Shown here: positions 571 to 40,920 of the stretch, one piece after another
Layout: the number at the start of each line of letters is the position of its first letter
Numbering within the stretch: the stretch's first letter is position 1
Origin: Owenia fusiformis
Taxonomy: Eukaryota > Annelida > Polychaeta > Sabellida > Oweniidae
DNA: 64,000 bases
Reading direction: 5' to 3'
Assembly: GCA_903813345.2 (NCBI GenBank)
Contig: CAIIXF020000004.1
Location: 8,205,525-8,269,524, forward strand
Notes under the pieces: generated by a model
What the model was told of the DNA's origin: nothing
Databases searched by the model: none
Seen by the model: only the letters and a program-made list of their open reading frames with translations
Program-made: the position numbers and the translations under genes

Positions 571-1365
571 TCACGTTTGATTTATCGTTGAACGGGTTAA
601 GGCAAAAACGAGCAAGGTAGACACGAAACCATACAAGCTTGAACACAACCTGACTCCATTACTCGTAATACGACCGTTGGCACTAGGTATGTGCGATGTC
701 TCAAATGTAACCGATTGGCCTTCCGTTGTAAGCTTACCCACAACCAGATTCGCGCGAGGCAATTCAGTCCCATCCTTCTCAAATGTGCAAAAACGTCCAG
801 ATGAAGGTGAATCAACAGGAGGAAAAGATTCCTGAAGGATTTTCTCATAATGATCAATTTTCCGACCAAATGTTTCATTTTGGAATTGGACAAAGAATTG
901 ACAATGCATGAAACCATCAGACCGAGCCTTTACATAAAGAATACCAATAATATTGAAAACTTCTTCAATAACTTTTGTCACGAGCAATTTGATATTTTGA
1001 GCATTGTTGTTTCCTATTGGGATTTTACAGTAAACTTTTAATTGTGTCTCATTTAACACGCATTCATTTTTGACAAGTTTAAACCGGTTTGGACATTTCA
1101 TCATACTTATCTCTGCACCTTTCACCTTGACAACAGAGTCAACGCCGGCGATACCCGCATCTGCCTTGATCTGATATACGGCACCTGAATCATTGATTGC
1201 ATCAATTAATACGGAGTAAGCAAAGAAGTTGGACATCTTAATGCCATTGTTTGGCATCTGATAACGGTCGCAGTCTCCACTTGCGGCCCAACTGAGACAT
1301 TGTAGGCAATAAACATTTCTTAAGATCAGACCACCTCCAATTTTGAAAAGTGTGGATCTCGAACT
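571..1365 (-). CDS. C-terminal ectodomain of the SMB-repeat protein, out of frame with the upstream part
   Basis: This frame is open from about 1365 to the TGA at 571 and continues the protein of 1326..3422 in a different frame. Near its start it reads RNVYCLQCLSWAASGDC. It looks like the second half of a repeated motif in which an aromatic-Cys-x-x-Cys block follows a Val-rich strand; the upstream ORF has the matching block VNYFCAMCN. Further on are FFAYSVLIDAINDSG, two Cys-rich stretches (MKCPNRF..KNECV) and a hydrophobic tail LYGFVSTLLVFAL followed by eight residues. Such ectodomains resemble those preceding seven-helix domains in some invertebrate SMB-containing receptors, but no seven-helix region follows. 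The tail could be a single membrane segment or lipid-anchor signal. The frame break makes this either a pseudogene, an assembly error or an unrecognised junction. Confidence 0.6.
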   Translation of the reverse strand, partial: SSRSTLFKIGGGLILRNVYCLQCLSWAASGDCDRYQMPNNGIKMSNFFAYSVLIDAINDSGAVYQIKADAGIAGVDSVVKVKGAEISMMKCPNRFKLVKNECVLNETQLKVYCKIPIGNNNAQNIKLLVTKVIEEVFNIIGILYVKARSDGFMHCQFFVQFQNETFGRKIDHYEKILQESFPPVDSPSSGRFCTFEKDGTELPRANLVVGKLTTEGQSVTFETSHIPSANGRITSNGVRLCSSLYGFVSTLLVFALTRSTINQT

Positions 1366-3422
1366 CCATTTCTACAGGCTTCCAAAATACGCTCGTCTTT
1401 GCATCTCTTGCTACATTGAGTTGGTGAAATAGAAATACAGGGCCGTCGCATATTTAAACCTTCTACCTTTGGAACTTTGGAAATCGAACACATTCTTCCT
1501 GATTTCTCAGCCCTATTTACCAAGTCGATTAAAAAAGCGCTGACTGATACGGGAAATTGTGGGGGATACTTGATTTGACAATGGATTGATATTTCCCAAG
1601 GAACAATGGTTTCATTGACCAAATTACACATAGCGCAAAAATAGTTGACATAGACAGTGTTTGTCAATTCGTCAGTCACTGGTACGACACCCTCTACACC
1701 ACTCTCCCCGTAACATTTCCGAATGACATCCACACCCTTGTAGTCGGGACTACAGGATTGCTTCATGTATATGTATCGACCGGCTCCTATATTTCTGCAA
1801 ACGAATGATTCCTTGATCTCAGTGTTATGTGTACGGTTGTCGCAAACATCGTTAAAGTCCTTGCAGCAATCCCCATAGATGTGACACGCCGCATCACAAG
1901 AGCAGAGCCACAAGGCATTCGTGTAATTGTTCATCTGCCCACATCTTCCACGGCACGTATTCTCCATACACGTGTATGTAGAAATGTCATCGCCACAGCT
2001 GTTTAGGTCTTCTTGAGTTTCAGTACTAGTTATAAGGTTTCGCTGTGTCTTGATAGTACCAGTATTAGAATGAAGTGTTGGCTCAAGTTCAGGACCAACT
2101 GGACTGATTGTCGTCTCACGTTCAGGATCAACTTGATCAATTGCTGCGTCACGTCCAGAATCAACAGAATCAATTGTTGTCTCATGTTTGGGATCAACTG
2201 GATTGATTGTCGCCTCACGTCCAGGATCAACAGAATCAATTTTTGTTTCACGTTCAGGCTCGATTGCTTTGATTGTCATGTCACGTTCAGGATCGACTTG
2301 ATCAATCGTTGTCTCATGTTCGGGATCAACTGCATTTGTTGTCGTCTTATGATCAGGGTCGACTTGATCAATTGCAACGTCAGGTTCAGGATCAACAGAA
2401 TCAATTGTTGTTTCACGTTCAGACTTGATTGGATTGGTTGTCGTGTCACGTTCAGGATCGACTTGATCAACTGCAACGTCAGGTTCAGGATCAACAGAAT
2501 CAATTGTTGTTTCACGTTCAGGATCGACTTGAACAATTGCTACGTCACGTTCAGGATCAACAGAATCAATTGTTGTTTCACGTTCAGGATCGACTTGAAC
2601 AATTGCTACGTCAGGTTCAGGATCAACAGAATCAATTGTTGTTTCTCGTTCAGACTTGATTGGATTGGTTGTCGTGTCACGTTCAGGATCGACTTGATCA
2701 ATTGCAACGTCAGGTTCAGGATCAACAGAATCAATTGTTGTTTCACATTCAGGATCGACTTGAACAATTGCTACCTCACGTTCAGGATCAACAGGATCAA
2801 TTGTTGTCTCACGTTCAGGATCATCTGATTTGACTGTGGTTTTATGTTCAGGATCGACCTGATCAATTGCTACGTCACGTTCAGGATCAACAGGATCAAT
2901 TGTTGTTTCTCGTTCAGGATCATATGGATTGATTGCTACGTCATGTTCAGGATCAATAGCATCAAATGTTGTGACACCTTCAGGATCGACTTGATCAATT
3001 GCCGTTCCACATTCGGGATCAACAGCATCAATTGTTGTTTCACGTTCAGGATCACCTGCATCAATTATTTTGTCATTTTCAGGATCAACTTGAAATATTG
3101 TTGCTTCACGTCCAGGATCGAATTGATGAATATATCCGACGTGTTCGGGGTCAACTACTCGTTCAGTTGGTATGGTACGCTCACTTTCCACTGGATCAGC
3201 TATTGTGTCACATTCTTGATCGACTTCATCTATTTTTTCCTCACGTTCAGCATTCACAATATCGATTTTGTCATGCACTTCGTCGGTTGATCTCCTGTAT
3301 ATTCTGCTTTCCACTGCTGATCTTTGGGCATACTTCACATGCGTGTAATGAGTGCAGTACAGAAGCATAGCTACCAACACAGTCAATGATACAATACTTT
3401 TCTTTTTTCTTTTGTTTCTCAT
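1326..3422 (-). CDS. Secreted or membrane-anchored protein with 11-residue acidic repeats and a somatomedin-B domain
   Basis: A 698-residue frame. Residues 1-8 are strongly basic and residues 9-24 hydrophobic (IVSLTVLVAMLLYC), fitting a signal peptide or type II anchor. Residues 57-453 are about 36 tandem copies of an 11-residue unit with consensus DPERETTIDSV, alternating with DPEPDVAIDQV. Residues 490-527 form a somatomedin-B domain: TCRGRC, then CSCDAAC, then DCCKDF and a final Cys give the eight-cysteine pattern. Somatomedin-B domains are disulfide knots found in extracellular proteins. A Cys-rich region with VNYFCAMCN follows. The frame ends in TGA at 1326, while a related block resumes in another frame at about 1340, so the true protein probably extended to 571. 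No intron is needed inside this ORF. The start is the first ATG, directly before the basic-hydrophobic leader. Ligand and function are unknown. Confidence 0.75.
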   Translation of the reverse strand: MRNKRKKKSIVSLTVLVAMLLYCTHYTHVKYAQRSAVESRIYRRSTDEVHDKIDIVNAEREEKIDEVDQECDTIADPVESERTIPTERVVDPEHVGYIHQFDPGREATIFQVDPENDKIIDAGDPERETTIDAVDPECGTAIDQVDPEGVTTFDAIDPEHDVAINPYDPERETTIDPVDPERDVAIDQVDPEHKTTVKSDDPERETTIDPVDPEREVAIVQVDPECETTIDSVDPEPDVAIDQVDPERDTTTNPIKSERETTIDSVDPEPDVAIVQVDPERETTIDSVDPERDVAIVQVDPERETTIDSVDPEPDVAVDQVDPERDTTTNPIKSERETTIDSVDPEPDVAIDQVDPDHKTTTNAVDPEHETTIDQVDPERDMTIKAIEPERETKIDSVDPGREATINPVDPKHETTIDSVDSGRDAAIDQVDPERETTISPVGPELEPTLHSNTGTIKTQRNLITSTETQEDLNSCGDDISTYTCMENTCRGRCGQMNNYTNALWLCSCDAACHIYGDCCKDFNDVCDNRTHNTEIKESFVCRNIGAGRYIYMKQSCSPDYKGVDVIRKCYGESGVEGVVPVTDELTNTVYVNYFCAMCNLVNETIVPWEISIHCQIKYPPQFPVSVSAFLIDLVNRAEKSGRMCSISKVPKVEGLNMRRPCISISPTQCSKRCKDERILEACRNGVRDPHFSKLEVV
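2064..3254 (-). repeat. 33-bp coding minisatellite (about 36 units of 11 residues)
   Basis: The array encodes the acidic repeats of the SMB protein. Units start with DPE and end with V or I; the periodicity holds with one single-residue slip after the third unit. Units alternate in two flavours (ETTIDSV and DVAIDQV), giving a 22-residue super-period. The pair DPERDTTTNPI plus KSERETTIDSV occurs twice, showing recent internal duplication. The reverse strand is also open over long stretches, a by-product of the repeat. Confidence 0.9.
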
Positions 3423-3486
3423 ATCGCGAGCGCTGGTATTATTTAAATCTGATTTCTAATACAATTCTCAAAGTCAATAACAACAT

Positions 3487-7657: not shown

Positions 7658-9000
7658 TCATTTACGGAATATCCACTTTACATTTCTATACAAAATGTGT
7701 CTTAATTGGTACGCAACAATGGGGATATCCACCAGTATCACAACAGAGGGGATTACGATTAGAATAACCAACGCTGTGCTACCAGCAGCCTTTGCACTAG
7801 GTCTTCTATCAGACACAGTGTATCCAATCAGCGCTTCGTCTTTCGTAACGTCTGTGTGTTTATCAATTGTTGTATTTAATGGAGTAAACATTTCCTTCTT
7901 GAATGGTATTTCTACGATTCGTTTTTTTATTGGTAACATCCCTGGTGGTATTCGGGTCGTTTTAGTAGTCTTGGTGATAAAGATGTTAGGCATGGTGGGC
8001 TCTACTGAAGATGACTTCAAGATTGAATATGACGCCAAGATAGGCCCATTTGCAGATGAATACAAGATAGGCCCAATTGAAGATGACTCAAAGATAGGTC
8101 CAGTTGAAGATGACTCAAAGATAGGTCCAGTTGAAGATGACTCCAAGATAGGTCCAGTTGAAGATGAGTTCAAGAAAGGACCGATTGAAGATGACTCCAG
8201 GATAGTCCAAGTTGAAGATGACTCCAAGATAGGCACGATTGAAGATGGTTCCAAAATAGGCCCGATTGAATATGGCACCAAGGTAAGCCCGATTGAATAT
8301 GGCACCAAGGTAGGCCCGATTGAAGATGACGCCAAGATAGGCCCAACTGAAGATGATTCCAAGATAGGCCCAATTGAAGATGACTCCAAGAAATGCTCGA
8401 TTGAAGATGACTCTAAGATAGACCCGAACGAAGATGACCCCAAGATAGGCCTGATTGAAGATGCCCCCAAGATAGGCCCGATTGAAGATGACTTAAAGAT
8501 ATGCCTTGTTGAAGATGACTCAAAGATGGGCCCAATTGAATATGACTCCAAGAAATGCTCGATTGAAGATGACTCTAAGATAGACCCGAACGAAGATGAC
8601 CCCAAGATAGGCCTGATTGAAGATTCCCCCAAGATAGGTCCGATTGAAGATGACTCCAAGATAGGCCCAATTGAAGATGACTCCAAAATTGTCCCAATTG
8701 GAGAGGACACCAAGACAGCCCCAGTTGACGATGACTCCAAGATAGGCGAAATGGAAGATGACTCCAAAATAGGCAAGATTGAATATGGCACGAAGGTAGG
8801 CTCAGTTGAAGATGACTCCAACGTGCCATCTAGCGAATTGGTTGAATCTACTGGTGTAGGCCAAATGTATGAGCTTGGTTGGGTTGACATTGTGTTTATA
8901 GCACTGGGAATGCTGGGTGTAGATGGCATTATGTGTCTTGGTGTAGTAGTTATGACGTCATTATTGTTGCTCTTACTAAACGCAATTAGGGTTGAATTGG
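7658..9000 (-). CDS. Mosaic gene exon 5: Ser-rich repeats, transmembrane helix, tail, stop
   Basis: The acceptor is ATATTTTCAG just before 9000; it has a pyrimidine tract, and an in-frame stop upstream of 9043 rules out simple read-through. Codons run to the TGA at 7658-7660. After a Ser/Thr/Pro-rich lead come about 29 units of ESSSIGPIL type (8036-8818), a linker, then a hydrophobic helix at about 7715-7786 (ALVILIVIPSVVILVDIPIVA) and the basic tail YQLRHILYRNVKWIFRK. The stalk has the composition of a mucin-like spacer. The opposite strand is open for 477 codons across the same region (7620-9053), but it lacks splice continuity and domain sense, so I treat it as a shadow. Confidence 0.75.
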
Positions 9001-12000
9001 CTGAAAATATAACGTTCTCATTTATTTCATTTCTCGGCTCCATTTACATTTAAAGGAGTAGTATTGATATGGAGAACTGAATTCAACAATGTTTTTCTCT
9101 TAAACCAATCATTGAAAACATTCTGTAAAAAACACGGTATTTTATGTAATGTTGACTGATTGACAACAATTTAATGTGAAAATTATTTAGAAATATTTTA
9201 TATAACTGTTTTTGTTAACATTCTTTGTTTTTTTAGTGCAATTGTTTTTGCTCCTTTCTACCAATTCTTGATAAATAAATAAAATGTCTTTCCGAACCTT
9301 GTTGGAACAAAATAGCATATACAACATGTTTACATGAAACAGTTCGTTTTGGTAACAAAATGTCGGAACGTCGAAGGTACGATTTTTCTTTTTTCCTTAT
9401 TTCACGCGTTGTAGGCAGAATCCCCACGACGTTTTTTCTCACAAACGTGTATCAGTATCATATGTTTTAGAAAATGTACATGTTTGCGAAAAAATTGCTC
9501 AAAAGACAACAGAATCGTCGATTTAATTCTTCATTTAAGTTACATAAACGGTTTGGGTTAAAAGTGCAGATCTTAACTGTTTTTCGAAAAACCGTTTATG
9601 TAACTTAAGTGAGGAATTAAATCGACAATTCTGTTGTCTTCTGAACTATTTGTTCGCAAATATGTACATTTTCTAAAAACATATGATACTGATACACGTT
9701 TGTGTTAAAAATGTCTTGGGAATTCTGCCTACAACGTGTGAAATGAGGAAAAGAGAAAAATCGTACCTTCGATGTTCCGACATTTTGTTGCCAAAACGAA
9801 CCGTTTTGGTAACCAGCGTAATCGAGTGGATCACCAGTGAATAATCAATTTGAACTTCACACCAGCCATACCTGTTGGTGTGTATAGCAATCTGTAATCG
9901 ATGCCACTGCAATGCGCCTCGGTGTGGCCACACCATCCACTGTTACTGCAGCATGGGTAGATACCAGAGCCCCAGTCAGGTATAGGCGAATCAATGGGGC
10001 ATTCAAGGTTGTCGAACAGTGGTCCGCATGAACCATTAGTCGTCAACATTGATGGATGTTGAACTTAAAATTAAAGTGAATTGTAAAAGTAGATCACCAA
10101 TTTAAAGTGTTCTTTATAACCATGATAATTAACTAAAATGTGTCAAATGTACCCCGAGGTCTCAGCATAAACAGATTGACCATATAGTGACCTGTGTAAA
10201 GTAGAAGCCCTTGCACATTCGTATATATAACGGAGGCAGTCAGACCCGTAGCCAGGCGGGGGGGGGGTCAGGGGGTGCGGGCAACCCCCCCCCCCAGCCA
10301 AAACATCTTTCAAAATCATGCACTTTTCACCAGTGATTTTTGTCACATGTGAAGTCTCCCTTGAAATTTTAAAAAATTTACCCCCACTCCTTGGCAATCG
10401 TTGGCTACGGGCCTGACAGTTCATCTCCAAAGGGATCATAAAATACGTATTGTAATCTTACCACAGAATGGGATGTCACAGTACTGCCAACGTATCTTAG
10501 AGTCAATAGTATAGCACCACGGTCCGTCTGATGTCCCATCAGGGTTACGACAATAGTTGTTGGCATCAGCCAGAGTGAGGTCCGGGAAGTTATTAGGGTC
10601 AGTGTTACCATGGTAGTGTGGTGTCTGTGCGTCCCAACGTTGACAGATGAAACCATATTTTGTCTGGGCAACCATCCCCGTGTAGTTCCTACCCTGTTTA
10701 CCGATTTTGCATTCTAGAATTACAGTTGCATTTATAGTTTAAATCCAAGAGTGCATTTAAAGATATGTCATTTTGGACGGTGCTGATGTTTACACGCGGT
10801 ACTAACTTCGACCGTTAATTTGAATTTTTGATCTACCGAATGTTTGAAAATCAAGGATTACGAGTCTCATACTGCACCGTTTTTCTTCAAACTTGTTCCA
10901 TTCAAAGCATAACAAAAATCCCTTTCTGTTGGTACATTATTCTCTGAAACAGAGTCCCTACTTCAAACGGCAGTTTGGTCCCCGGCTGAAAGAAGGCCTT
11001 CTAACAGTTGGGGACCAAAACGCTGCTAGAACGAGGGACTCTTTACAATAAAGTAATGCACCGACAGAAAGGCAATTTTGTTTTGTTTTTAGAAGAAAAA
11101 CGATGCAGTATGAGACTCGCAATCCTTGATTTTCAAGCATCTGGTAGGTCAAAAATTCAAATTAACGGTCGAACTTAGTACCGCGCGGTGTAATACACTT
11201 CTTCTTATTATACAAATTGTGTTTTTCGACTTATATTGTAAATGATGGTTCAAAATGAATAGCATTTCCATTGTACATTATGTGTATAGATTCCAAAGTG
11301 CCTACCATACACGCACCTGTATAATCTGCCCATGTAGGCATATGAACACATGCTGTACTAAAAGGATCAATCTGGTACCCGGCATTACAATCACAATGAT
11401 ACGATCCTATCGTGTTGACGCAAAACGATGAGGTCGTGTTACACATAGGTGTCGCACCAAATGAATTCTTGCATTCGTCAATATCAACACACACCGTGCT
11501 TGAATTGTCTTTCTGGTATCCAAGTCTACATATGCAATCAAACGAACCCAAAACATCCACGCACGTTGATACAGTCAAGTTGCAGTTATGAATATCACTT
11601 GCACATTCATTTATGTCTTCACAACGATATGGCACGCTGCCATTTGTGCCTGTAGTGAGGTTTGTAAAACCGTCTCTACATGAACATTCGTACGATCCTT
11701 GGTTGTTCTCACATTCTGTGATGATGGGTAAGTCGCAGGTGACACCTGTTATGTTGCATTTATTCACATCGTAACATCCATAAATAGCAGGAAAATCGCA
11801 TTCGTCTATATCTAAAGAAACAGGTGACTGTGTACTACATGTATTTATTCTTCAAGGGTTCTTATTTATGTTGTTCATTTCGATGAACTTGGGTTGTGCT
11901 TGGTCAGATATTTTTATTTCTCGATTTTACACCATTTATAAGTCAAGTTGTGGACAATAATTTGGCTCAAAGTTAAAGAAGATGGTTTAGTTTGAGAATA

Positions 12001-15000
12001 TGCAGGCGGTTCTATGTTTGATACATTAACGAAGACGCAATTCACATATTTAGTCCCTCGCTTTTGTTACGTTGACGTAAGATCAATGTTACGTTGACGA
12101 ACGTGTGACTTGGGGCTGTTGTTAAGTTGACGAACCATATTAACATTGGCGTATATTGGGCAACAATCATGAACACATAGTTCAACTATTTCAGACAGTC
12201 ATGGAAGTCCTAAAATCACGAGGGTGAGGCACTGAGCGTTCAGAGACAGGTACTCGACGAGAAATGAAAATCCTATACAGTGCGTATCAAAAAAACGCAA
12301 CAGATTGTAATCTTGGAAAAGCACAAAACCAGTGATAACAGCATTGATTTCATTCAATGCACCATAAAGCCATGTGTCTCCTCTTTACAATGACATATCA
12401 TTCATTGATATTTGGTCATGGTTGGGCGAGTAATCATTCCATTTGCAAAGTGGGCCAGAATTAGCTTCGGGCCAAGTTATAAATATTGCAAAAGTCAGTG
12501 ACGGAGCCCGATGCAATATTGGACGAAAACATAAAACCAATGCTGACTGCATCTTTTTAATTCAATGTACCAAAAAGGCAAATTACTCTGCTTTGCAATG
12601 GAATATCATTCATTCACAGGGAGTCATCTATGGCCGAATAATCATTAATTAATCGGACCCAAGTTTAAAACATTGCAAAAGTCAGTATAAGGGGCATAGG
12701 GGCTATTGGAAGAAGATGTGACAGGTATGGCATAGACAGTAAAGTGTTCATACTCATAATCTTGCAAGAATACATCCTATACCCTTCCAAATTGCCACCA
12801 CTTCCTTGCACATAAAGATGCGCTCATCTGTCCACGTCATGCATGGTTCAGCCCTGAATCATGTGTGGGTTAAAGCAAAGAAAAGCAGCCCATGGGCAAA
12901 TCTTTCTCGAGGTTTTGCAATATCTGATGGAGGAATTGTGAGCACAGATGCTCCTGAGATAGCTCCAAAAGAAAAAGTCACAACAATTCAAGTCAGGGGA
13001 ACTTCCATTGGCACTTAGCCCTTGCACTGATTTTTTCAATATCTAAAACTTGGCGCATAGCCGATTTTGACCCACTGTGCAAATGGAAGGATTTCTCACC
13101 CAAGCATTACCACATGTGAATGAATGACATATCATTGCAAAGAGGAGAGACATGGCTTTATGGTACATTAAATGAAATTGATGTAGTCATCACTAGTTTT
13201 GTGATTTTACGAGATAACTACTTGTTGCGTTTTTTTGATACGCCCTGTATTTACATGAAATGAGGGGCATCGGATACAAATTGATTCGAACTTAAAGTTG
13301 TACTCAAACCATTTTACTCGATTTAGTTATGCCATCTTACCGTATGAAGGCCGCGCTTTATGATAGTGAAAAATCAACAATTCCAAAAGTTCATTTTATC
13401 ATGATATTGGTGATATAAAGTCAGCACATGTCTGTTTTCGCAGTAAAACTGATTTCATTTTAAGAGCAGAAATTTTACGTCACGTGACAATGACGTGCGA
13501 GGTTGAAACATTTTAATCAATTCCTTGTATAGTACTATTAGATTATCGAAGTTGCTAAGAAACAACTAATGTCTATGAAAAGCGCTAGTCCGCCATCTTT
13601 GGATTGCGACCCAAAAGTCGTCAACAGACCCCCATCTTCTGATTCCCCGTCGTACTCATCTGTCACCGCAAATAATAACGACAAGTGGATTACTGCTGGT
13701 CCTAAAGGACGTCATTCTCCTGTTCCCGAACGCCCTAATTCGTCTCCACGACGAACACTTACAACCAATAAAGGACAAAACCGTATTAAACTGACTGGGG
13801 TCAAAGAGGTAAAATTCACGCTTGTTTATGTTAGCAATATTCGAAAAGATTCCAATGTTTCAGACGATGATATCCGTTCTGCGATCGTTGACCATGCCAA
13901 GGATAAGGGAATAAGAGTCATGAAGGCCGATATTGTACACAATCGTGTATGCGACGATAAAGTCGGATGCAAACTTAACATCCCCGAATCCCAAGCAGAG
14001 ATAATTCTTGCAACCAATTTTTGGCCAGACCCGGAAATTGGATGCCGTGTATGGCAGCGCAGATCTACCCAGCGCTCAAACTACAATAGTCAACGGGGTA
14101 GTAATTTCAAACATATACCTGTAATCACGGGTCATTATTCCCATTCACATGGGCGATCATATGATACCTATGAGCTCGGCCGCGACTCAAACGGCTACTA
14201 CAATAACAATAGATATGGTGAAACTATTGACGAGGATGAGCGACATCTTGCAGTTTAGGGGTATACAGTGTATGGATTCCATGAAACCAATACATCTGTG
14301 TTTCCTGCTATTTTATTTTCTTGCCCATATAAATATTTTTACTTCCCATATGAATGCAATCAACACTTCCCAAAATGTTCTATCAAATAATGATTTGAGA
14401 CTCATACAATGGAACTGCAGAGGTTTAAACGTATCGTCTCTATATATTAATTCTCTGCTATCACAATGCGATATAATGGCTCTCTCCGAGCATAAACTTT
14501 ACAATTGTAATAGATTTAAGTTGGACTCCGTCCATCCTGACTTTAATTGTTGTAGCTCCAGTAGCAAATCTTTAAATGATTTTAATTGCGGGAAAGTATG
14601 GGGCAATGGTGGTGTAGCTATATTTTGGCGCAAATCATTGGATAATTATATTATACCTGTTAAGAAAATGTGTACCGATAGAATTGTTTGCTTAAAGGTA
14701 TCGGTCGTGGTAGACTCGCCCTTGTACATATTTTCAGTATATTTGCCACAACAAAACTGTGTGATAGATAATTTTGACGATGTCTTATTTTCACTTGAAC
14801 AATTTGTTCAAGAAGCAAATATTGATGGCAATGTAGTTATTCTTGGTGATGTCAATAGCAATCTAGGTCAATTAACTGGAAGTAGGGGACACGGAGATCC
14901 ATCGAGCAATGGCTACAATCTGTTTGAATTTATGAAGCGGAACATCTTAACTGCAATTGACATGACGGAGATAACTACTGGTCCAACCCACACTTTTGAA

Positions 15001-18000
15001 ATGATGAGGAATGAAGTACTACATGTGAGCTACATTGATCACGTGATTATTTCTTCCCAACTTGCTAATAATATACTTACCTGTAAGGTGTTTGAAGATG
15101 AACCTGACAACACATCAGATCATCTACCGATTTTAACGATTTTAAATTTTGATGTTAAGATAAACAGACGGTCGAGCATACAAGCGCCAATAGGATATGC
15201 GTGGGATAAGCTCAACAATGACGATATCTTGGAATCATACACTCGTTCAATTAACTTACAATGTAATGATATTGTATCCGAGCTACATTCTATCATGTCT
15301 AAAAGGTCTCTGAATGGCAATGAGATTGAGTATTTTATAGATAAATTACTAGATATTTTGACACTCACCTCTAACGCCCATATACCAAAAAAGAGATTTT
15401 TAAAATATGAAAAGCCATTCTGGAATCCAACTTTAACTGTTTTAGCAAAAGATAAAAAGACAAAATGGCGTGTATGGGTGTCTCGGGGTAGGTCACGTGA
15501 TATATCCGATCCAGCGCGTAGTCAATATAAAGATTCAAAAAAGTTATTTTCCAAAACCTATCACGCAGCCCAAATTGAGTACGAGAAACAGGAACTAGAA
15601 AAACTCTATACATCGGAACAAACTGACCAACGGTTCTATTGGTACCTCGTTAATAAACATCGAAGAACATCAAAGAGATCTGTAAGTCCTATTTTGTCAG
15701 ACGATGGCATACTTATAACAGACGCCGACGAGATAAGAAATCAATGGAAATGTCATTTTGAGAAACTTGCCACCCCACTAAATAAGCCAAATTTCGATTC
15801 TGAGTTTAAAACCACCATTGAGAACAAAATCAGAACAATTATTAAATGTAACGAGGATGACAAAATTAATGGTATGGCAGTAAGCATTAGCAATGAAGAT
15901 GTCACCAGTGCAGTTAAAGCACTTCATTGTAAGCGTGCTTGTGGCTATGACCAAATCAGTGCTGAACATTTAAAATATGCCGGAAGCAAAATGTATGAAT
16001 CCATTGCTCTCTTATTTAATTCAATTATTCAATCAGAGCACATCCCAAATAATTTCTGTGTAGGCGTAATGATCCCTCTCACAAAAAGTGGCAAAGATCC
16101 TCTCATAAAAGATAATTCTAGAGGAATAACCCTCATGACAATGTTTCGTAAACTCTTTGACAATATATTATTAACTTACTTGAAAGTTCCGATCTACAAA
16201 ATGATACCAAAGTTACAAGGGGCATCGGTTGAAAAATGTTCATCTGTTCACACTTCCTTATTGGTGCAGGAGACTATTTCAGATAATGTCGAACAGGGTA
16301 AAATGGTAGTCATTACAATAACAGACATTCGTAAAGCCTTCGACTCTGTTTGGATAGATGGTCTATTTTTTAAGCTCCACAAAAGTGGCGTTGTTGGAAA
16401 ACTTTGGAACATATTGTACAATTTATATAAACACTATAGGTGCGCGGTTCTAGTAGGTGGTGCGCGCTCAAATTCATTTCCTATTCTCCAAGGTGTACAT
16501 CAAGGTGGCGTGCTGTCAATGCTCTTCTATCAATTATACATGTCTGACATTATTGAAACCATGATTAAACTAAGTATTGGTTCCACCATAGGAGACACCA
16601 GCTGTGTCAGTCCATGCTACGCTGATGACATGTGTATCCTATCAAACTCATTTCAAAATATGCAAGTCCTATTGGACGCACTTACTAAACATAGCAATCA
16701 ATGGAGATATGAAGTACATCCACAAAAGTGCACATATCTTGTTTTTAACAGTAAAATCGAATTGGGAGCCACTCAAAAGCTAAACATTGGAGGTGTACCG
16801 ATCGAAAAATCTAATTATGCTAAACACGTTGGTATACCACTGTCTGTAGATAATGACATCAGTAATTATGTAAATGATAAATGCAAAAAAGGAAAATCTC
16901 AGTTTAATGCCCTTCTGGGAATTGGAAGTAAATGCGGAGGCCTTGTTCCCACTTCAGCATGTCAGATATACAAAACTTATTCCATACCCTGTATGACATA
17001 CGGTGCTCCGGTAATCAATTATCATCAAAAAGATATTGAACAATTAAACATAGTACAGAGAGGCATTGGACGGAGGATTCAATCCCTTTCCCAATCTGCT
17101 AGCAATCCAGTCTCAACATTTCCTCTTGGGTTACTTGATATAGACTTTTACATAGATTTCCTCCGAATGATGTTTTTCTTTAGTATTTTACAACTCCGTT
17201 GCTCAAATATTTACAAACACATATTCACGATACGGTTGATAAAATTGACGTATATGAAAACAAATTTTGATGTGTTTTCTCCTATCCGTAACATGCTCAT
17301 ATGTGCTATAAAATACAACTTGGATAAATACATTCTCGATATGCTATACTGTAAAACTCGAATCACCAAACAAAGGTGGAAGAAAATTGTTTTTACAGAA
17401 CTTTCGACAGCACAAATACAGAGAACGTTTGTTAGATCAATTATGTATACTGGTCTTGAACTATTTAGGTTGAATGATTTTAGGTCTTTGAGTCCAAATA
17501 TATGGTGGTGTGTTGCCAGAAAGTTCCCTGTTGCCCTCGGTGGTTGCAAAATTATGGTTAAACTTCTGACAAACGAACATACTCTAGGAACAAAATATCG
17601 AGGCGGAGAAAACAAGTCAAAATTATGTTATATGTGTAATACGTTTCAACAGGAAAATGTCATCCATTTTATGTTAACGTGCACAGCAAATAGCTATACC
17701 CCGTTTAGACGTAAACTAAATGAGCACTGCCAAAATTTTGGTATAGAGATGAATATTAACAACATTTTAGGGATTAACTTTAGAAATGATCCCCGGTCTT
17801 TAGATTTTTTGAGAGGCGTTTCACTTATCGTGCAAGAGCAATACCACCTCCGTGCTTCGTGCTTGCAATGCAACTCATAACTGACTTATATGATTTCGGA
17901 TGCGTTTTAATGCAAACCATGGGTTAAAATCTGTTGATTAATGCGTCAAGTATTTTATATCTATCTATATATTTTATATACATAAGGTATAAACCATATG

Positions 18001-20851
18001 TACATACTTAATCTATATCTACTGTCAATTGTGATCTCTGAACAAATGATCTCTCAAATGGTTGTAATTGGACGATGAGGTAGCGGTAGCATCTTATATC
18101 GTCTGTGGTTCATTGGATGAGATGCTTACATCGACCTTGGGGAAGATGAATTACACTCAACTAATGAGATAAGTGTATTATATAATGTATAAAACGTATG
18201 TACATACTTAACCTTTTTTACTTTTTCAATTATGATCTCTGCACAAAATGATCTCATTAAGGGTTGTAATTGGACGATGAGGTAGCGGTAGCATCTTATA
18301 TCGTCTGTGGTTCATTGGATGAGATGCTTACATCGACCTTGGGGAAGATGGTTTGCACTCAACTAATGAGATAAGTGTATTATATAATGTATAAAACGTA
18401 TGTAAATACTTAACCTTTTTTACTTTTTCTATTATGATCTCTGCACAAAATGATCTCATTAAGGGTTGTAATTGGACGATGAGGTAGCGGTAGCATCTTA
18501 TATCGTCTGTGGTTCATTGGATGAGATGCTTACATCTACCTTGGGGAAGATGGTTTGCACTCAACTAATGAGATAAGTGTATTATATAATGTATAAAATT
18601 GTATGTACATACTTAACCTTTCTTAACCTAACCTTTTTTTTTTTTTTTTTTTTTTTTACTTTTTCAATTATGATCTCTGCATAAATGATCTCATTGAGGG
18701 TTGTAATTGGACGATGAGGTAGCGGTAGCATCTTATATCGTCTGTGGTTCATTAGATGAGATGCTTACATCGACCTTGGGGAAGATGGTTAGCACTCATC
18801 TAACGTATAAAGTGTGTTTTATATATTGTATATATTTTTTATTCTATGTTCATTTAACATTAATGTTATATCAGCATTATTTTCATTGTACACTGTATAC
18901 ATGTATCTCCTTTTCATAAAGGGCAATAAAGATATACATACATACACTATGTTATGAATGATATTGCAGTGCTGTATCCACAAGAAATTCTTTTTGTGAA
19001 GTTCAATCAATTAACAATCTTTATTTTGCACTTGAAATGGGTGCGAATGTTGAACTAATATATTTTTACTTTGGTTCAGCCTTCGTAATAGTTTGCAACA
19101 GCAACTTTTCGATTCAGCGCCAGAATAATTTGGCACACGGTATTTCAAAACTGTCATGGTCAGGTGACCTCAAAAAGTGAACAAAATAACAACATTTCAG
19201 AGGCATTTCAGAGGTTGACTGTCTTGTCTTAATAAATCTTTTTGTGGGTAAATATCACAAGCTTTGTAGTCAAAATAACAAAATGGATGTTTTTGTGCTA
19301 AAAACAAGATAACAAGAGATTCTTAAATTGGTTTAAGTACAACTTCAAACTTAAAAATAAAGAGAATATGCAGCGATGACACAGTTTCGTTTTTTGTCTC
19401 CACCAAAATTGATATAGGCTCCACATTTTTGTTGACGATGTTTGAAATATTTTGGTCATGGCATAGCATTATATTGCATTATATTGCACTGCATTTTATT
19501 GTATTATATTGCACTGTATTGTATTGCAGTTTTATTACATAAAATGTTATTTATAAGATTATAATTTTCAAACGTTGAAAAATGTTTTTTAGAATATCAC
19601 TTAAAAGATATGAAATGGCCCAAAATGATATATTTTCAATGGAACCCTTTGCAGGGGTCACTTCTGTTTGTGTCAGTCGGTAATATGGATTGTCACCCCT
19701 TCAACAAAAAAACACTTAAAAATTGATATGTGTTCAATAGCACATAGCTAGTTAATATTCCCTGAATGATACTGGAAGTTTACTCAAATATGAACTTATC
19801 CGTTTATCACTTCGAAAAAGGCAACATTCATTAGGTTATCTAGTATGAGTGAGTGTTCTGATTTGACTAGCTATGCGTGAATTCTTTTTTAGTCAATAAG
19901 ATAATTTCATAAGCGGGGAAGAGGGGGGGGGGGGTGAATCTTTCTATTTATTGTAAACAATAAATAACACAGAGCAAATCGACACTTGCTAACTTTTGTT
20001 ATGTGAGAGAGGGAAGAAATTAGACCATAAAGAAAATATCTTCGCATTTCCACAACTGTTGATTATTGGATCTCATGAAAAATTAAAATGCTTCCCCACG
20101 TTTCGAACCCGTGCATAACAGGAGGTCCTCAGGCCAAGGCAATTCTCTACCAATAACGCTATCAGATTATCCACAGTTATTTGAGCCTCTAATAAATTAA
20201 ATTGTGAATATGATGTCAGTTTTGTATCAATATTGGAATGGAATGCACATATTATAAGAATATATATGAGAATAATTACAAAATCTTGATTCTTTATCTC
20301 AGCTCCAGCTATATACAAATGCCCCGGACACATGCCACAAATCTATGAGCCTGGATCTGGAGCTTTCGATACCCCATGACATTCCAAGATCAAGATTTTT
20401 CATTCGTCAACGTAACAAAGTGTCTTCGTCAAAGTCACATTGGCAATATTCATGCAGATCGTCAACTTAACAAAAGCGAGGGACTAAATATGTGAATCGA
20501 GTCTTCGTTAATATACCAAACATAAAACCGCATGTATATTCGCAAACTAGACTATCTTCCTTCTTCCAAATTATTGTCCACAACTTGAGTTATAAGTGGT
20601 GTAAAATCGAGAAATGAAAATATCTTAACGAAAACGAAGGCTGGAAGTTCTCCCACCTTGTTACGCTGACTAGGTGAGTACCAGTGCCAATAACAGCTCC
20701 TATTAGGTAAGAAATTTAGTGTGGCACGACTTTAAATACCATAGTTTCTACACGTACCTTCGTCTGCTCTCTGTATCTCAAAATCTGAAAACAAAAAAAC
20801 GGAACACTGAGAAATTCCGCTGAAAAACAGTATCGTCCAAATAGTTGCCAT
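7658..20851 (-). CDS. Five-exon mosaic receptor-like gene: EGF3 - kringle - hevein-like - Ser-rich repeats - membrane segment
   Basis: Gene model on the minus strand: 20851-20758, 11811-11317, 10713-10462, 10063-9872 and 9000-7658. The exon lengths (94, 495, 252, 192, 1343) sum to 792 codons including the stop, so a single frame of 791 residues runs through. Every intron is phase 1 with GT and AG ends, so each internal exon is a symmetrical 1-1 module, the classic form for shuffled extracellular domains. The predicted protein is a type I membrane protein with a modular ectodomain, a long Ser/Thr-rich stalk that could be heavily O-glycosylated, one transmembrane helix and a short basic cytoplasmic tail without obvious signalling motifs. 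A hevein-like fold suggests binding of chitin or other GlcNAc polymers; kringles bind proteins. The combination is unfamiliar to me. Function is inferred only as cell-surface recognition or adhesion. Confidence 0.75.
8036..8818 (-). repeat. 27-bp coding minisatellite (about 29 units of 9 residues)
   Basis: The array encodes the Ser-rich stalk of the mosaic protein. Units 7-11 and 13-17 are near copies of each other, a 162-bp internal duplication visible as the same plus-strand word GATAGACCCGAACG at about 8417 and 8579. Both strands are free of stops throughout the array. Confidence 0.9.
9050..9335. mobile_element. Transposon end fragment in intron 4
   Basis: About 275 bp here match 24983-25230 closely in the same orientation, from GTATTGATATGGAGAACT to ACAACATGTTT. 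The first part also matches, inverted, 26798-26827, which marks it as the terminal region of a transposon family. It sits 50 bp upstream of the exon 5 acceptor. Confidence 0.75.
9337..9839. mobile_element. Foldback MITE, copy 2 (left end truncated)
   Basis: Same family as 3487..4022: inverted halves around a centre near 9570, with the right end GGATCACCAGTG intact. The left arm starts about 38 bp inside the expected end, and no target duplication is visible. It fills intron 4 of the mosaic gene and ends 31 bp from the exon 4 donor site. Confidence 0.8.
9872..10063 (-). CDS. Mosaic gene exon 4: hevein-like (chitin-binding type 1) domain
   Basis: A 192-bp phase 1-1 exon with acceptor TTTTAAG before 10063 and donor GTATGG after 9872. 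It encodes SCGP, an 18-residue spacer with one Cys, then CCSNSGWCGHTEAHC. That block matches the hevein core CCS-x-x-GWCG-x-T-x-x-[YH]C, which forms the sugar-binding face. Six of the eight hevein cysteines are present; the last pair is missing and replaced by GIDYR. The spacer between the first and second halves is longer than in plant hevein. Hevein-type domains bind chitin or GlcNAc oligomers. They are typical of plants and fungi and uncommon in animals, so the call should be checked against profile searches. Confidence 0.75.
10241..10415. mobile_element. CCCGTAGCC-type MITE in intron 3
   Basis: Ends CAGACCCGTAGCC and GGCTACGGGCCTG are inverted copies. Inside are a G10 run, a C10 run and a short AT-rich core. 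The core word near 10300-10330 recurs inverted in the copy at 32590..32789. CAGT occurs at both flanks, suggesting a 4-5 bp target duplication. Confidence 0.75.
10462..10713 (-). CDS. Mosaic gene exon 3: kringle domain
   Basis: A 252-bp phase 1-1 exon with acceptor AATTCTAG before 10713 and donor GTAAGA after 10462. Its 84 residues make one full kringle: EC at the start, GRNYTG, FICQRW, NNYCRNPDG, GPWCY, WQYCDIPFC, with all six conserved cysteines. Kringles are protein-binding modules best known from plasminogen and related proteases. In plasminogen kringle 1 the lysine-binding pocket uses an Asp-x-Asp pair just after NP; here the corresponding run is DGT, so one Asp appears absent and lysine binding is doubtful. 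No protease domain follows. Confidence 0.92.
10792..11191. mobile_element. Foldback element in intron 2
   Basis: A 400-bp palindromic segment. The ends ACACGCGGTAC and GTACCGCGCGGTGT are inverted copies, and the arms match over at least 100 bp each side, including ATTTGAATTTTTGATCTACC and its complement. A second palindrome around GAGTCCCT/AGGGACTC lies in the centre. It occupies two thirds of intron 2 of the mosaic gene. Confidence 0.8.
11317..11811 (-). CDS. Mosaic gene exon 2: three calcium-binding-type EGF domains
   Basis: A 495-bp phase 1-1 exon, acceptor TTTCTTTAG before 11811 and donor GTGCGT after 11317. It encodes three EGF repeats, each opening with the calcium-binding signature DIDEC, DINEC and DIDEC. 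Repeats 2 and 3 have the canonical six cysteines and end with FDCICRLGYQ and YHCDCNAGYQ. Repeat 1 is longer, with eight cysteines and an insertion rich in N-glycosylation sites. Calcium-binding EGF tandems form rigid rods in extracellular matrix proteins and receptors. The three domains in one exon suggest intron loss or retrotranscribed shuffling. The frame joins the kringle exon at DYT-EC. Confidence 0.92.
12278..13247. mobile_element. Tc1/mariner-type element with decayed transposase
   Basis: Starts CAGTGCGTATCAAAAAAACG and ends with the near complement closing in GCCCTG, flanked on both sides by TA, the Tc1/mariner target. The inverted ends extend well over 100 bp. The minus strand at 12848-13039 encodes a relic with SSPDLNCCDFFFWSYLR. 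It resembles the catalytic-core motif SPDLNPxDFFLWxxLK of DDE/D transposases of this superfamily, but the rest of the frame is broken. The uninterrupted sequence is present in the inverted copy near 24080-24110. Non-autonomous. Confidence 0.8.
12848..13039 (-). pseudogene. Transposase relic (Tc1/mariner-like DDE core)
   Basis: A fragment of about 63 residues whose SSPDLN and DFFFW words match the block around the second catalytic Asp of Tc1/mariner-related transposases. No helix-turn-helix or remaining catalytic residues can be followed in the same frame. The conserved Trp-Pro start of the block is degraded. Part of the element at 12278..13247. Confidence 0.55.
13569..14258 (+). CDS. LINE ORF1 (RNA-binding-like protein)
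   Basis: 229 residues. The first 75 residues are Ser/Pro/Asn-rich and basic, probably disordered. Residues 80-165 form a compact region (VKFTLVYVSNIRKDSNVSDDDI..., then KVGCKLNIPES and FWPDPEIGCRVW) with the alternating strand pattern of an RRM-like or related ORF1p fold. The C-terminal third is rich in Ser, Tyr, Asn, Arg and His. LINE ORF1 proteins coat element RNA. No zinc knuckle is visible. The ORF overlaps the start of ORF2 by 23 bases if ORF2 begins at 14236. Confidence 0.75.
   Translation: MSMKSASPPSLDCDPKVVNRPPSSDSPSYSSVTANNNDKWITAGPKGRHSPVPERPNSSPRRTLTTNKGQNRIKLTGVKEVKFTLVYVSNIRKDSNVSDDDIRSAIVDHAKDKGIRVMKADIVHNRVCDDKVGCKLNIPESQAEIILATNFWPDPEIGCRVWQRRSTQRSNYNSQRGSNFKHIPVITGHYSHSHGRSYDTYELGRDSNGYYNNNRYGETIDEDERHLAV
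14236..17880 (+). CDS. LINE ORF2: AP endonuclease - reverse transcriptase - zinc finger
   Basis: The frame is open from 14149 to the TAA at 17878. I prefer ATG 14236, which overlaps the ORF1 stop, or 14272 just after it; both fit stop-restart translation. Domains in order: endonuclease/exonuclease/phosphatase fold from about 14387 (IQWNCRGLN, the E of LSEHKL, ILGDVNSNLG, and SDHLPI at about 15120), reverse transcriptase from about 16060 (RGITLMTMFRKLFDNILL, TDIRKAFDSVW, QGVHQGGVLS, then YADD at 16618-16629), and a C-terminal C-x2-C-x11-H-x4-C zinc finger at 17626-17682. Endonuclease nicking and target-primed reverse transcription are the expected activities. No stop or frameshift interrupts it, so the copy may be young. 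Confidence 0.92.
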   Translation: MSDILQFRGIQCMDSMKPIHLCFLLFYFLAHINIFTSHMNAINTSQNVLSNNDLRLIQWNCRGLNVSSLYINSLLSQCDIMALSEHKLYNCNRFKLDSVHPDFNCCSSSSKSLNDFNCGKVWGNGGVAIFWRKSLDNYIIPVKKMCTDRIVCLKVSVVVDSPLYIFSVYLPQQNCVIDNFDDVLFSLEQFVQEANIDGNVVILGDVNSNLGQLTGSRGHGDPSSNGYNLFEFMKRNILTAIDMTEITTGPTHTFEMMRNEVLHVSYIDHVIISSQLANNILTCKVFEDEPDNTSDHLPILTILNFDVKINRRSSIQAPIGYAWDKLNNDDILESYTRSINLQCNDIVSELHSIMSKRSLNGNEIEYFIDKLLDILTLTSNAHIPKKRFLKYEKPFWNPTLTVLAKDKKTKWRVWVSRGRSRDISDPARSQYKDSKKLFSKTYHAAQIEYEKQELEKLYTSEQTDQRFYWYLVNKHRRTSKRSVSPILSDDGILITDADEIRNQWKCHFEKLATPLNKPNFDSEFKTTIENKIRTIIKCNEDDKINGMAVSISNEDVTSAVKALHCKRACGYDQISAEHLKYAGSKMYESIALLFNSIIQSEHIPNNFCVGVMIPLTKSGKDPLIKDNSRGITLMTMFRKLFDNILLTYLKVPIYKMIPKLQGASVEKCSSVHTSLLVQETISDNVEQGKMVVITITDIRKAFDSVWIDGLFFKLHKSGVVGKLWNILYNLYKHYRCAVLVGGARSNSFPILQGVHQGGVLSMLFYQLYMSDIIETMIKLSIGSTIGDTSCVSPCYADDMCILSNSFQNMQVLLDALTKHSNQWRYEVHPQKCTYLVFNSKIELGATQKLNIGGVPIEKSNYAKHVGIPLSVDNDISNYVNDKCKKGKSQFNALLGIGSKCGGLVPTSACQIYKTYSIPCMTYGAPVINYHQKDIEQLNIVQRGIGRRIQSLSQSASNPVSTFPLGLLDIDFYIDFLRMMFFFSILQLRCSNIYKHIFTIRLIKLTYMKTNFDVFSPIRNMLICAIKYNLDKYILDMLYCKTRITKQRWKKIVFTELSTAQIQRTFVRSIMYTGLELFRLNDFRSLSPNIWWCVARKFPVALGGCKIMVKLLTNEHTLGTKYRGGENKSKLCYMCNTFQQENVIHFMLTCTANSYTPFRRKLNEHCQNFGIEMNINNILGINFRNDPRSLDFLRGVSLIVQEQYHLRASCLQCNS
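17985..18800 (+). repeat. Four 202-bp tandem repeats in the LINE 3' UTR
   Basis: The word GGACGATGAGGTAGCGGTAG starts at 18070, 18272, 18474 and 18709. The spacing is 202, 202 and 235, the last enlarged by a poly-T run at about 18636-18657. Each unit contains a potential hairpin pairing GACGAT with ATCGTC across about 21 bases, followed by a conserved stretch ending TTGGGGAAGATG. Confidence 0.9.
20084..20170 (-). repeat. tRNA-like sequence, probable SINE head
   Basis: On the minus strand a box-A-like run TAGCGTTATTGGTAGAG is followed 33 bases later by GGGTTCGAAACG, a good box B. The spacing matches a tRNA gene. The acceptor stems do not pair and the T-stem is shortened, so this is a tRNA-derived element rather than a working tRNA gene. 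It may be the promoter head of a SINE in intron 1. Confidence 0.5.
20758..20851 (-). CDS. Mosaic gene exon 1: signal peptide
   Basis: ATG at 20851-20849 opens MATIWTILFFSGISQCSVF, a typical short signal peptide, followed by DFEIQRADE. The donor GTACGT follows in phase 1 and joins exactly to DIDEC of exon 2. A strong acceptor-like tract (seven Ts, then GTTTTCAG) lies inside this exon after the signal sequence. A 27-bp phase 1-1 microexon (20758-20784) fed by a more distant first exon is therefore an alternative. An overlapping out-of-frame ATG lies six bases upstream. Confidence 0.6.
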
Positions 20852-37780: not shown

Positions 37781-40754
37781 TAAAAAATTAAATTTCTTAG
37801 TAACGAATCTTGTCGCAACCTCGCGAATCAGGACAGCATAACATTGGTATCACGTTGACATCGGTAAGCCCGGTCAATAATGGGTCCGAAAGTTCACGAT
37901 CATATATATATTCTTACTAGATTCTCGGCACATAGACTTATATGGACATTCTACAAATTTTGAACCGCATTGTCCAGCACGAATCGCACTCCTTCTTGGT
38001 GAAAATTCAAGACTGCCGCCAACATTTTAGACAATTATCACAGTCGAAGAGAATATTCTGGCGAAAGGAATATCTATCTCATTAGAATAACGTATGGACG
38101 TCCGTGACAATTATATAATATTCATTTGATAATTTTTTTCATTCCCTTTTCTCAATAATATATATTAGATTAATTATGTTTTCCAATATCAATTGATAAT
38201 ATTTCTACCCTGAAAAATATCTAAAAAGAAGATTTTGGTTGTTCAGTACCACCCATTGTTAAGATTTCGTCCAAATTTTCGATAAATCAATAAAATATGC
38301 TCATTTCGTATAACTTATTATATGTGGCATATATACATATCAGATGTCTATCCTTTTTTCATCATAATATAAGAGGCTTGTATGTTTTAGTAGAAACGTA
38401 AATCCTTTCCAAACATTTAGATTTAAGAATTTCTCCCATTGGTGATATTGTTCAAAATCAAAACTGTGTTTTGCGATATATTGAACTGTTGAAGTAAGTG
38501 TGTAATAGTTTGGAATTTTCATGCGAATTGCGTATATGTCACGCAATCGTTCGTATTGTCTTTAGTCTTCACTTTTTTTGTGGATGGTGTTCGGCAGTTG
38601 GCATTCTGCATTCAGAGACAGCATTCCTTTTTTCTTTTTAAATCATGTATATATTTCTTATTTTATAAATTTGTATACGTCAGGTCATTTTACAATATTG
38701 CAATATTTTTTAAAATAGATACAATTGCAATTATTTAAAACATCATTACAATAGTTTACAAATATAATGTAACATAAGTTGTTTAACCATTCATCAAAAT
38801 AAGTATACTTAGTGTCTTGTACCTTATAGCCAAAGACAAGAGTTTTATACTTTTTCAAGCTTAATTCAATTTTAAAATCATCTAAAATATAATTTTCAAG
38901 TGGGTCTATTACATTAGTAGGCCTACTCTATGATACTGAAAGAACAAATGTTTAAAGTATTCTACTTGTCTGCAAATATCACACTTGTCATTAACAATTA
39001 TTTTCCATCATGATCTTAGGAGTCACTGGCGAACCCAGAAAAAAGCTTAAAAAGACCCTTTTGGTCAATACTGGGCCTTTTAAGGCCTTATTTTTCAATT
39101 TCAAGCCAAATTTTGAAGAAACGGTCCTCAAAATTTTGGCCAACTTTTGGGTTTTAGGGAAGTTTTTTCTCTGATCTGAATTTGCCCCCCTTGTTGGTTC
39201 CCAGATCCGCCCCTGGAAGTAATTGTTTGCATGGTAGAATGTAATGTAAAAGTTTGTATTTGAAATTGGCCACTTTTTTATTTTTGGATTGCTTTAAAAG
39301 TATCCAAGTATGTTGAAACAGCATTTGACTATTTTGAATTTCACATTTCAGATTAATTCAAAATGATTCCAAATATGTTTAGTTGCTATAAGTTCCAGCA
39401 AGATTGAATATATGTCTCTAGGACTTCCATGTTTATCCAAAAATCTATAATGCTTCAATTTACAGTCATAAAACCGTATTAACATACTAGTATACGTACA
39501 TCTGCTTGCCTCACTAAATATTTTAACTCTATATTGAAATGGCAAAGATTGCTTAACAGTTATATATTCTGCCATCCATTTGACCCTAGATTTGAGCTTC
39601 AGACCCTATATTTAAGGGGTCAGCACCCTGTATTTGTAACAAATGTTAGGTTGTAACAATGTGCATGTTAATGCCTTAATCGTTAATGGATGAAGTGGGA
39701 TGGGAGGTATCCCACTTATAGAGGTCCATTTAACATTAATGAGTTGGTCTTGGCACTCTGAAATGTTCCACTTGACATATTTCACTCCAATCCGTCCAGC
39801 TCTGTGAACGAGCACTCTTTCATTGGTAAAGGGTGTATTTGAGAGTAAATATCAACTGAACGATTCCTCCATGGGCCAGTATTTAGCCTAATAAAAACTG
39901 TCGAAAGACGAAAATACAGGTGATACAGATCTTCAAATAAACCATATGCAAAGTTAAATTATGCTATTCTTATTGCAAAGTGGCGTTAACATATTAACAT
40001 ACACAGGGGTCTACAATTTTTAAACCAATTTTCTTTATGCCCCATGGGGCTTTTTGAGAGGGAACAACATTTTTCCAATGTGTGATGGGCGTTCATAAAA
40101 GGGAAATAGTTTTACCAAGCCAGTGGGCATTTATTTAGTAAAGTTGACGTGTACATCTTTTGAAACCAAAAATTATTCTTCATTTTAGGTACTCTGTTCG
40201 AGAAATAGAGATTAAATTCAAAAAGATGAAGTGAGTACATGGCGAAAATGAAACTTCTTGCGAATGGGAGAACATATCCAATTTGATACGAGGACAGCCT
40301 GTCTTCGTTTCCAGTTAATCCCAAGTGATTAAGTTTAGAATGTTTTGTTCTTTTACATTTTACGATTTGATAAGAGACAGAGACTAAGAAATTAAATGCG
40401 ACGAAACATTTTGACAACGTAATATGTGTACTGTTTATTCTTAAAGTTTTATGCGTTAACTTATTTTATCGGTTTCAAAATGTTTCATTTTATTTTGCCT
40501 ATATAAAATATATTGAATAAGATAAGATCAACTGTTCCGTAATATATATTGTGTTTTGATGAGCTTTTTTAGAATCACAATGTAAAATAAATCCCCCGTT
40601 CCCGTCATTCTGGTAACGCCGTGTAATGGATGCAATTCAAAGTGAGAGCGAGATCTATACATCAGAATGCGTCCATGCCATTAATTTTGCCAAATACATG
40701 ACATGAAACTGGCCTGAGGTGCGTCCTTTATCTGGTAAGTTATGACTAAATTTT

Positions 40755-40920
40755 TCGGAGAACTGGGTTTCGGAGAACTGGGTTTCGGAAAACTGGGTTT
40801 CGGAGAACTGGGTTTCGGAGAACTGGGTTTCGGAAAACTGGGTTTCGGAGAACTGGGTTTCGGACAACTGGGTTTCGGACAACTGGGTTTCGGACAACTG
40901 GGTTTCGGACAACTGGGGTG
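40755..40920. repeat. 15-bp array, right end (11 units)
   Basis: The complement of the left array: outermost four units carry GTTGTCC, inner units GTTCTCC or GTTTTCC. The order outer-to-inner mirrors the left array. Confidence 0.95.

Follow-up and report, generated by a model that had tools for sequence, protein, structure and literature searches.

A predicted stalked surface protein of Owenia fusiformis with EGF, kringle, and hevein-like domains and a membrane anchor shared with differently headed siblings

Within a 64,000-nucleotide stretch of a 498 Mb animal genome, that of Owenia fusiformis (C4:8205525-8269524, referred to here as the window), we identified a predicted minus-strand gene of five exons. 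Its single reading frame combines three calcium-binding EGF domains, a kringle, a hevein-like domain, a Ser-rich stalk, and a membrane anchor. The individual domains are all known; what is new is their combination, together with an anchor that is found with differing heads elsewhere in the genome. We lean modestly toward reading the whole product as a type I stalked surface protein with a lectin-like role in adhesion or recognition, built on this shared anchor.

Five exons and one reading frame

A first-pass annotation of the window had proposed minus-strand splicing of five exons into a mosaic membrane protein. All four introns indeed carry a GT donor and an AG acceptor, and all four junctions are phase 1. 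Exons 1 to 5, when cut and joined, give a reading frame of 2376 nt that encodes 791 residues followed by a stop. The domain order claimed for the product was borne out as well, with three EGF_CA domains, a kringle, a hevein-like domain, the Ser-rich stalk, a transmembrane segment, and a basic tail in succession. The features, in window coordinates, are the following.

20758..20851, minus strand: exon 1, 31 codons with the start codon and a segment resembling a signal peptide, phase-1 end; donor score 5.5; without homology support
11317..11811, minus strand: exon 2, encoding all three calcium-binding EGF domains; EGF_CA 75.8 bits
10462..10713, minus strand: exon 3, kringle domain, six cysteines; PF00051 87.3 bits
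9872..10063, minus strand: exon 4, hevein-like domain, six cysteines; PF00187 26.3 bits (cut-off 27.8)
7658..9000, minus strand: exon 5, Ser-rich stalk, juxtamembrane DRRPSA motif, transmembrane segment, and 17-residue basic tail
7658..7822, minus strand: shared anchor inside exon 5, made up of the juxtamembrane motif plus the transmembrane segment and tail; present at 35 genome places

Judged from its sequence, this predicted gene looks real. Because dN is below dS in the kringle and hevein exons and the anchor finds matches elsewhere, the exon pattern is more than chance, and the anchor match, together with the excess of synonymous change in exons 3 and 4, fixes the coding strand. The five exons are presumably joined in transcripts as drawn here.

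Profile searches of residues 1–344 against Pfam, which the annotation had proposed as a check, recovered both expected families, EGF_CA in three stretches (75.8 bits versus a cut-off of 27; E = 3e-21) and Kringle (87.3 bits versus 34.3; E = 9e-25). As read from the translation, the EGF domains start with D-I-D/N-E-C, and the first of them in exon 2 contains eight cysteines. With 150 of 367 candidates scored, the EGF exon had no other genome match at 1e-15. The kringle is surrounded by far more kin: a genome search with a kringle-hevein query gave 152 matches, mostly kringle (150 of 210 candidates scored), and among those listed are more than 100 kringle matches, many of them clustered on C2, C6, and C8. 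The closest kringle paralogue is an exon in the C6 cluster, with 79% identity across 84 residues, a dN of 0.113, and a dS of 0.475 (ratio about 0.24). Its intron flanks align with scores of 20 and 21 versus 10–16 for shuffled sequences, only slightly better, and the 7.3 kb examined at this C6 locus contain no match to the EGF or hevein exon of the window at 1e-3. The match of exon 3 spans almost the whole PF00051 profile, and this score and the six cysteines liken it to the kringles of plasminogen-type and receptor proteins, from which the window protein differs in having no protease or kinase domain after the kringle. In the lysine-binding DxD motif of kringles, the second Asp is replaced by Thr in the window gene.

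Composition makes exon 1 the best candidate for the predicted start, a leading candidate rather than proof. With both strands of the 64 kb considered, two places passed a filter requiring an ATG, a hydrophobic core, and a phase-1 donor, with thresholds fixed ahead of the first run: exon 1, by a narrow margin (2.01 versus 1.9), and 16243-16180. The second of these was dropped as an alternative first exon for lying antisense to a LINE. Exon 1 sits 8.9 kb upstream of exon 2, past that LINE. For exon 5, the acceptor at 9000 (phase 1) scores 6.1, whereas the automatic picker favors 8975 (phase 2; 6.6); of these two, only 9000 stays in frame with exon 4.

These details bear on whether the model is an artifact of exon choice, with exons 2–4 and exon 5 belonging to different genes or exon 1 coming from elsewhere. 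The length of intron 1, its load of a LINE and inverted repeats, and the higher automatic score of 8975 lend this view some support. Against it, exons 2–5 lie within 4.2 kb on the same strand with compatible phase-1 junctions, and in six siblings found through the anchor (see below) a single open frame encodes both head and anchor. A preference for phase-1 acceptors is seen at anchor exons elsewhere too: the best acceptor was phase 1 in 20 of 22 that scored at least 6.5, versus 139 of 303 control ORFs (p = 1.4e-5), with a picker that itself leans to phase 1 and whose phase-2 choice in the window is unlike that in most anchor exons. We regard such an artifact as quite improbable.

Several other elements occupy the window. 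The LINE-type element of intron 1 (13542-17880, plus strand) has a long frame with endonuclease and reverse transcriptase (RVT_1) domains, and the start of this frame is overlapped by a 238-residue frame without a Pfam match. Inverted repeats at 11906-12077 and 20460-20625 flank the ends of intron 1 and match at 88–95% over 60–103 nt, 8.4–8.6 kb apart. Introns 4 and 2 hold palindromic MITE-like hairpins (9337-9806 and 10795-11185, respectively) with outer arms that are 91–92% complementary. On the minus strand, neighboring gene pieces at 571-3455 include a lengthy array of DPERETTIDSVDP-type repeats with a Somatomedin_B domain (33.4 bits) behind it, and an open frame at 40655-41149 contains a run of LSETQ/FSETQ five-residue repeats.

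The hevein-like domain

The annotation had called exon 4 hevein-like and described hevein-type domains as mostly plant and fungal. The assignment stands. Chitin_bind_1 (PF00187) is the sole Pfam family to match exon 4 (residues 293–333; E = 8.7e-6), and the exon taken alone scores 26.3 bits, below the curated cut-off of 27.8. A non-hevein Cys-rich family, which the annotation had named as the outcome that would count against it, was not seen and can be set aside, in that PF00187 is the only family matched at E ≤ 0.01 by any of the 13 aligned exons, and all 13 match it. Animal hevein-type domains are, however, not new: one survey counts 136 hevein-type sequences in Metazoa and mentions 13 bacterial hevein homologues (PMC6362431). 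In the present genome, PF00187 has at least 15 matches. Seven of the 15 exceed the cut-off, two of them only together with in-frame neighbors, and six of these seven are relatives of exon 4 in our alignment (A1). A prokaryotic source of the hevein exon gained no support from one pattern scan of genome contigs, which returned 157 pattern matches, none of them confirmed by tblastn.

Alignment A1 comprises 13 of at least 20 hevein-type places; those outside it include four on C5 at 32.0 Mb, a place at C4:12.8 Mb, and a pair on C9. All 13 rows keep the six cysteines in a C-C-CC-C-C pattern. Between exon 4 and eight relatives, dN ranges from 0.20 to 0.30 and dS from 0.36 to 1.18, the weakest ratio being 0.257/0.362. 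With hevein, exon 4 shares the six-cysteine core including CCS-x-x-G-W-C-G, with the next Cys in register. It differs in a longer C2-C3 loop with a Trp that is conserved in most rows, in the lack of a seventh and eighth cysteine, in position 21 being none of Phe, Trp, and Tyr, and in its setting between a kringle and a Ser-rich stalk. In a search of PDB sequences with exon 4, the hits were six weak ones to hevein and pokeweed lectin entries, with E values between 0.03 and 0.54, and a fusion protein at 0.8. The predicted fold is poor (pLDDT 51.6), and its sole two Foldseek hits, hevein-32 (E = 2.2) and Ac-AMP2 (E = 5.8), are not significant.

In hevein, the sugar contacts are Ser19 and the aromatic residues at 21, 23, and 30. 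At these positions the window exon reads Ser, Ser, Trp, and His, thus keeping two of the four contacts. Across A1, position 19 is Ser in 11 of the 13 exons and position 23 is Trp in 12 of 13 (Trp or Tyr in all 13), whereas no exon has Phe, Trp, or Tyr at 21 (two have His) and position 30 is His in 10 and Tyr in three. The residues at 21 and 30, along with the subthreshold Pfam score of exon 4, would suit a domain that has lost sugar binding, with the EGF domains and kringle binding a protein ligand as in an ordinary adhesion molecule. The retained Trp at 23 and Ser at 19 and the excess of dS over dN speak against such a loss, as do the two pokeweed lectin domains (1ulk) in the PDB alignment, which also have His at 30, although with Tyr at 21. 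We judge loss of sugar binding unlikely; the domain is hevein-like, and it may plausibly bind sugar.

An animal comparison by description is tachycitin, a horseshoe crab chitin-binding peptide that is said to resemble the hevein domain (PMC2866484). Like exon 4 it is animal, Cys-rich, and of chitin type; it differs in being soluble, with 73 residues and five disulfides. Elsewhere in the genome, at C5:31.90-31.96 Mb, three neighboring genes (L004, L005, and L006) have pairs of hevein-like exons, one exon of each pair containing two extra cysteines. In L004, the hevein-like exons adjoin C-type lectin and Sushi exons detected by Pfam; L005 and L006 are alike by eye.

Stalk and shared anchor

The stalk encoded by exon 5 consists of ≈30 nine-residue units, and its frame has no Pfam match at E ≤ 1. 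Its Ser plus Thr content is 0.31 in the 170 residues ahead of the anchor and 0.33 across residues 345–715; the window stalk is rich in Ser, Ile, and Leu, unlike most of the sibling stalks inspected, which are Thr-rich. The 27-base period of the exon leaves a 483-residue frame open on the opposite strand, so the openness of exon 5 by itself proves little. After the stalk comes a transmembrane stretch of 21 residues (754–774; mean Kyte-Doolittle value 2.84) and then the basic tail of 17 residues.

The last 113 residues of exon 5, used as a genome query, found one paralogous place, an exon in which an SRCR domain is combined with a TTIETT-type stalk and a membrane segment resembling that of exon 5. 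The tail of this SRCR paralogue found 17 places in turn, and a typed consensus from 14 aligned segments found 35 at E ≤ 1, including 27 with E < 0.1. The reversed consensus gave no matches and no candidates. We then trained an anchor profile on 22 of the 34 members outside the window, selected with a typed D-x-R motif list, and used the remaining 12 and the window for scoring alone. This profile, trained without the window, scores its exon 5 at 42 bits (E = 1.5e-11) and re-finds all 35 places at E < 1e-5, in a set where L025-L043 were taken for resembling the consensus, such that their scores are not independent, where the link between window and anchor was first seen with the window's own sequence, and where L041 contributes two of the 35 places, neighbors of nearly identical sequence. 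As controls, the best non-member among 4714 ORFs reached 11.9 bits (E = 0.04) and the best reversed ORF 10.7 bits (E = 0.096). Against PDB sequences, the profile had no hits at E ≤ 1.

All 35 rows aligned to the profile have a Gly ahead of the membrane segment and an Asp near its end. The juxtamembrane D-x-R-x-S-A motif falls in a gap in nine rows, with its D present in 26, its R in 24, and its S in 23 of the 35. A Ser/Thr-rich stalk (S+T of at least 30%) precedes the anchor in 23 of the 26 members that have 40 or more residues of upstream frame, versus 6 of 95 other long ORFs. Convergent hydrophobic composition, with no family behind it, would explain why much of the match falls in the transmembrane segment, why identities to the window row are 17–33%, and why the motif outside the membrane is gapped in some rows. 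It sits poorly with residues that are conserved outside the membrane where the motif is present, with the Ser/Thr-rich frames ahead of the anchor, and with the empty result and low scores of the reversed consensus and reversed ORFs, and we consider it very improbable.

One subgroup of anchor places (L016, L017, L020, L027, and L028) has a longer conserved cytoplasmic part with a C-x-x-C-W-C motif; this part had no Pfam match in L017, the sole subgroup member scanned.

To see what the anchor carries, we scanned 11 of the 34 siblings, chosen by eye for Cys-rich frames, against Pfam and found a head in 10 of them, L017 giving none. Six have the head in the anchor's own open frame: SRCR in three (one barely over its cut-off), CBM_14 in two (one below its cut-off), and Sushi in one. 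In the others, the head lies in an upstream frame on the same strand and is EGF in two, a C-type lectin (Lectin_C) in one, and PAN_4 in one. Two unrelated chitin-type modules, hevein-like in the window and CBM_14 in siblings, thus occur on the same anchor. No Pfam match was obtained for two frames of L017, for L021:5454-5912, for L006:1173-1460, or for L042. The stalk of L013 matches LbR_Ice_bind and Alanine_zipper over their cut-offs, which we take as low complexity. Among the matches listed, no other anchor place has a kringle or hevein domain within 100 kb.

Predicted function and lineage setting

The annotation had suggested a new cell-surface recognition or adhesion receptor. The architecture and the idea of a surface protein are supported; the protein is no one-off, given an anchor at 35 places, and a 17-residue tail leaves scant room for signaling. 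In the reading that we favor, the protein would span the membrane once in type I orientation, and a long Ser-rich, probably glycosylated stalk would hold a head of three calcium-binding EGF domains, kringle, and hevein-like domain away from the membrane. Its C-terminal exon would be one copy of an anchor of which most members retain the membrane part and the Ser/Thr-rich stalk while the heads vary. At its probable location on the cell surface, the hevein-like domain may meet GlcNAc-containing polymers outside the cell, whether microbial, dietary, or the animal's own chitin, and the EGF domains and kringle would provide spacing and protein contacts. The short tail would not signal by itself but act in trafficking or in pairing with a shared partner, and the invariant Asp may, with that tail, serve such a partner or sorting. 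The frame, the domains, the constraint, the stalk composition, and the anchor family were established computationally, whereas we infer the joining of the exons in transcripts, the surface location, the glycan ligand, and the partner.

The principal rival is a tether to the animal's own chitin, in which these proteins would hold cells of the epidermis or gut to chitinous or mucous structures of the animal itself (cuticle, chaetae, tube, or gut lining) with no recognition of anything foreign. Such a tether might use the hevein-like and CBM_14 heads that one anchor bears, the stalks are long, and many members are short-tailed, the window protein ending five residues past the end of the profile. 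SRCR, C-type lectin, Sushi, and PAN heads, however, fit recognition of varied ligands better than attachment to a single matrix polymer, and we hold the tether to be possible but doubtful. Equally tentative is a bolder extension of the recognition reading, an exon-shuffled innate repertoire of ≈35 genes in which one phase-1 anchor exon with stalk, D-x-R-x-S-A motif, transmembrane segment, and short tail receives swapped lectin-like heads, all of the proteins pair through the invariant Asp with a common signaling or trafficking partner, and the window gene is the sole EGF-kringle-hevein member.

Membrane mucins and stalked lectin receptors combine an SRCR or C-type lectin head with a Ser/Thr stalk and one transmembrane segment. 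The window gene and its anchor siblings share this general build; they differ in placing one anchor sequence under unrelated heads and, for the window, in the head order EGF-EGF-EGF-kringle-hevein. Expansions of SRCR genes have reportedly occurred in invertebrates, and the SRCR heads of three anchor siblings recall them, but the family here is defined by its anchor rather than by SRCR.

The annotation had proposed an architecture search among echinoderms, hemichordates, and cephalochordates. That deuterostome setting does not fit, as a Hox-cluster gene in this genome has the Lox5 KLTGP peptide, which rules it out and indicates a genome of lophotrochozoan type. According to one study, the KLTGP Lox5 parapeptide is a signature of lophotrochozoans and Platyhelminthes that is absent from Ecdysozoa, Ambulacraria, and Chordata (PMC5431905). 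Our homeodomain query contained KLTGP, but the Lox5 match ends at query residue 66 and the peptide was read from the DNA. The Hox cluster lies in one stretch at C1:17.97-18.47 Mb that holds 11 of 16 homeodomain matches, including the Lox5 gene with KLTGP after its homeodomain.

Our literature search found no paper naming both hevein and kringle, none for Chitin_bind_1 with metazoan, and none for kringle domain with annelid and gene family expansion. Judged by title, hevein with annelid returned antimicrobial peptides or lipopeptides only, and Owenia with kringle returned astacins only. The EGF-kringle-hevein architecture may be present but unnamed in animal protein databases.

The shared anchor turns what looked like one odd gene into a family with varying heads and a constant membrane part. 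It offers a concrete and testable picture of how surface recognition or adhesion might become diverse in a spiralian, an animal that lacks antibodies.
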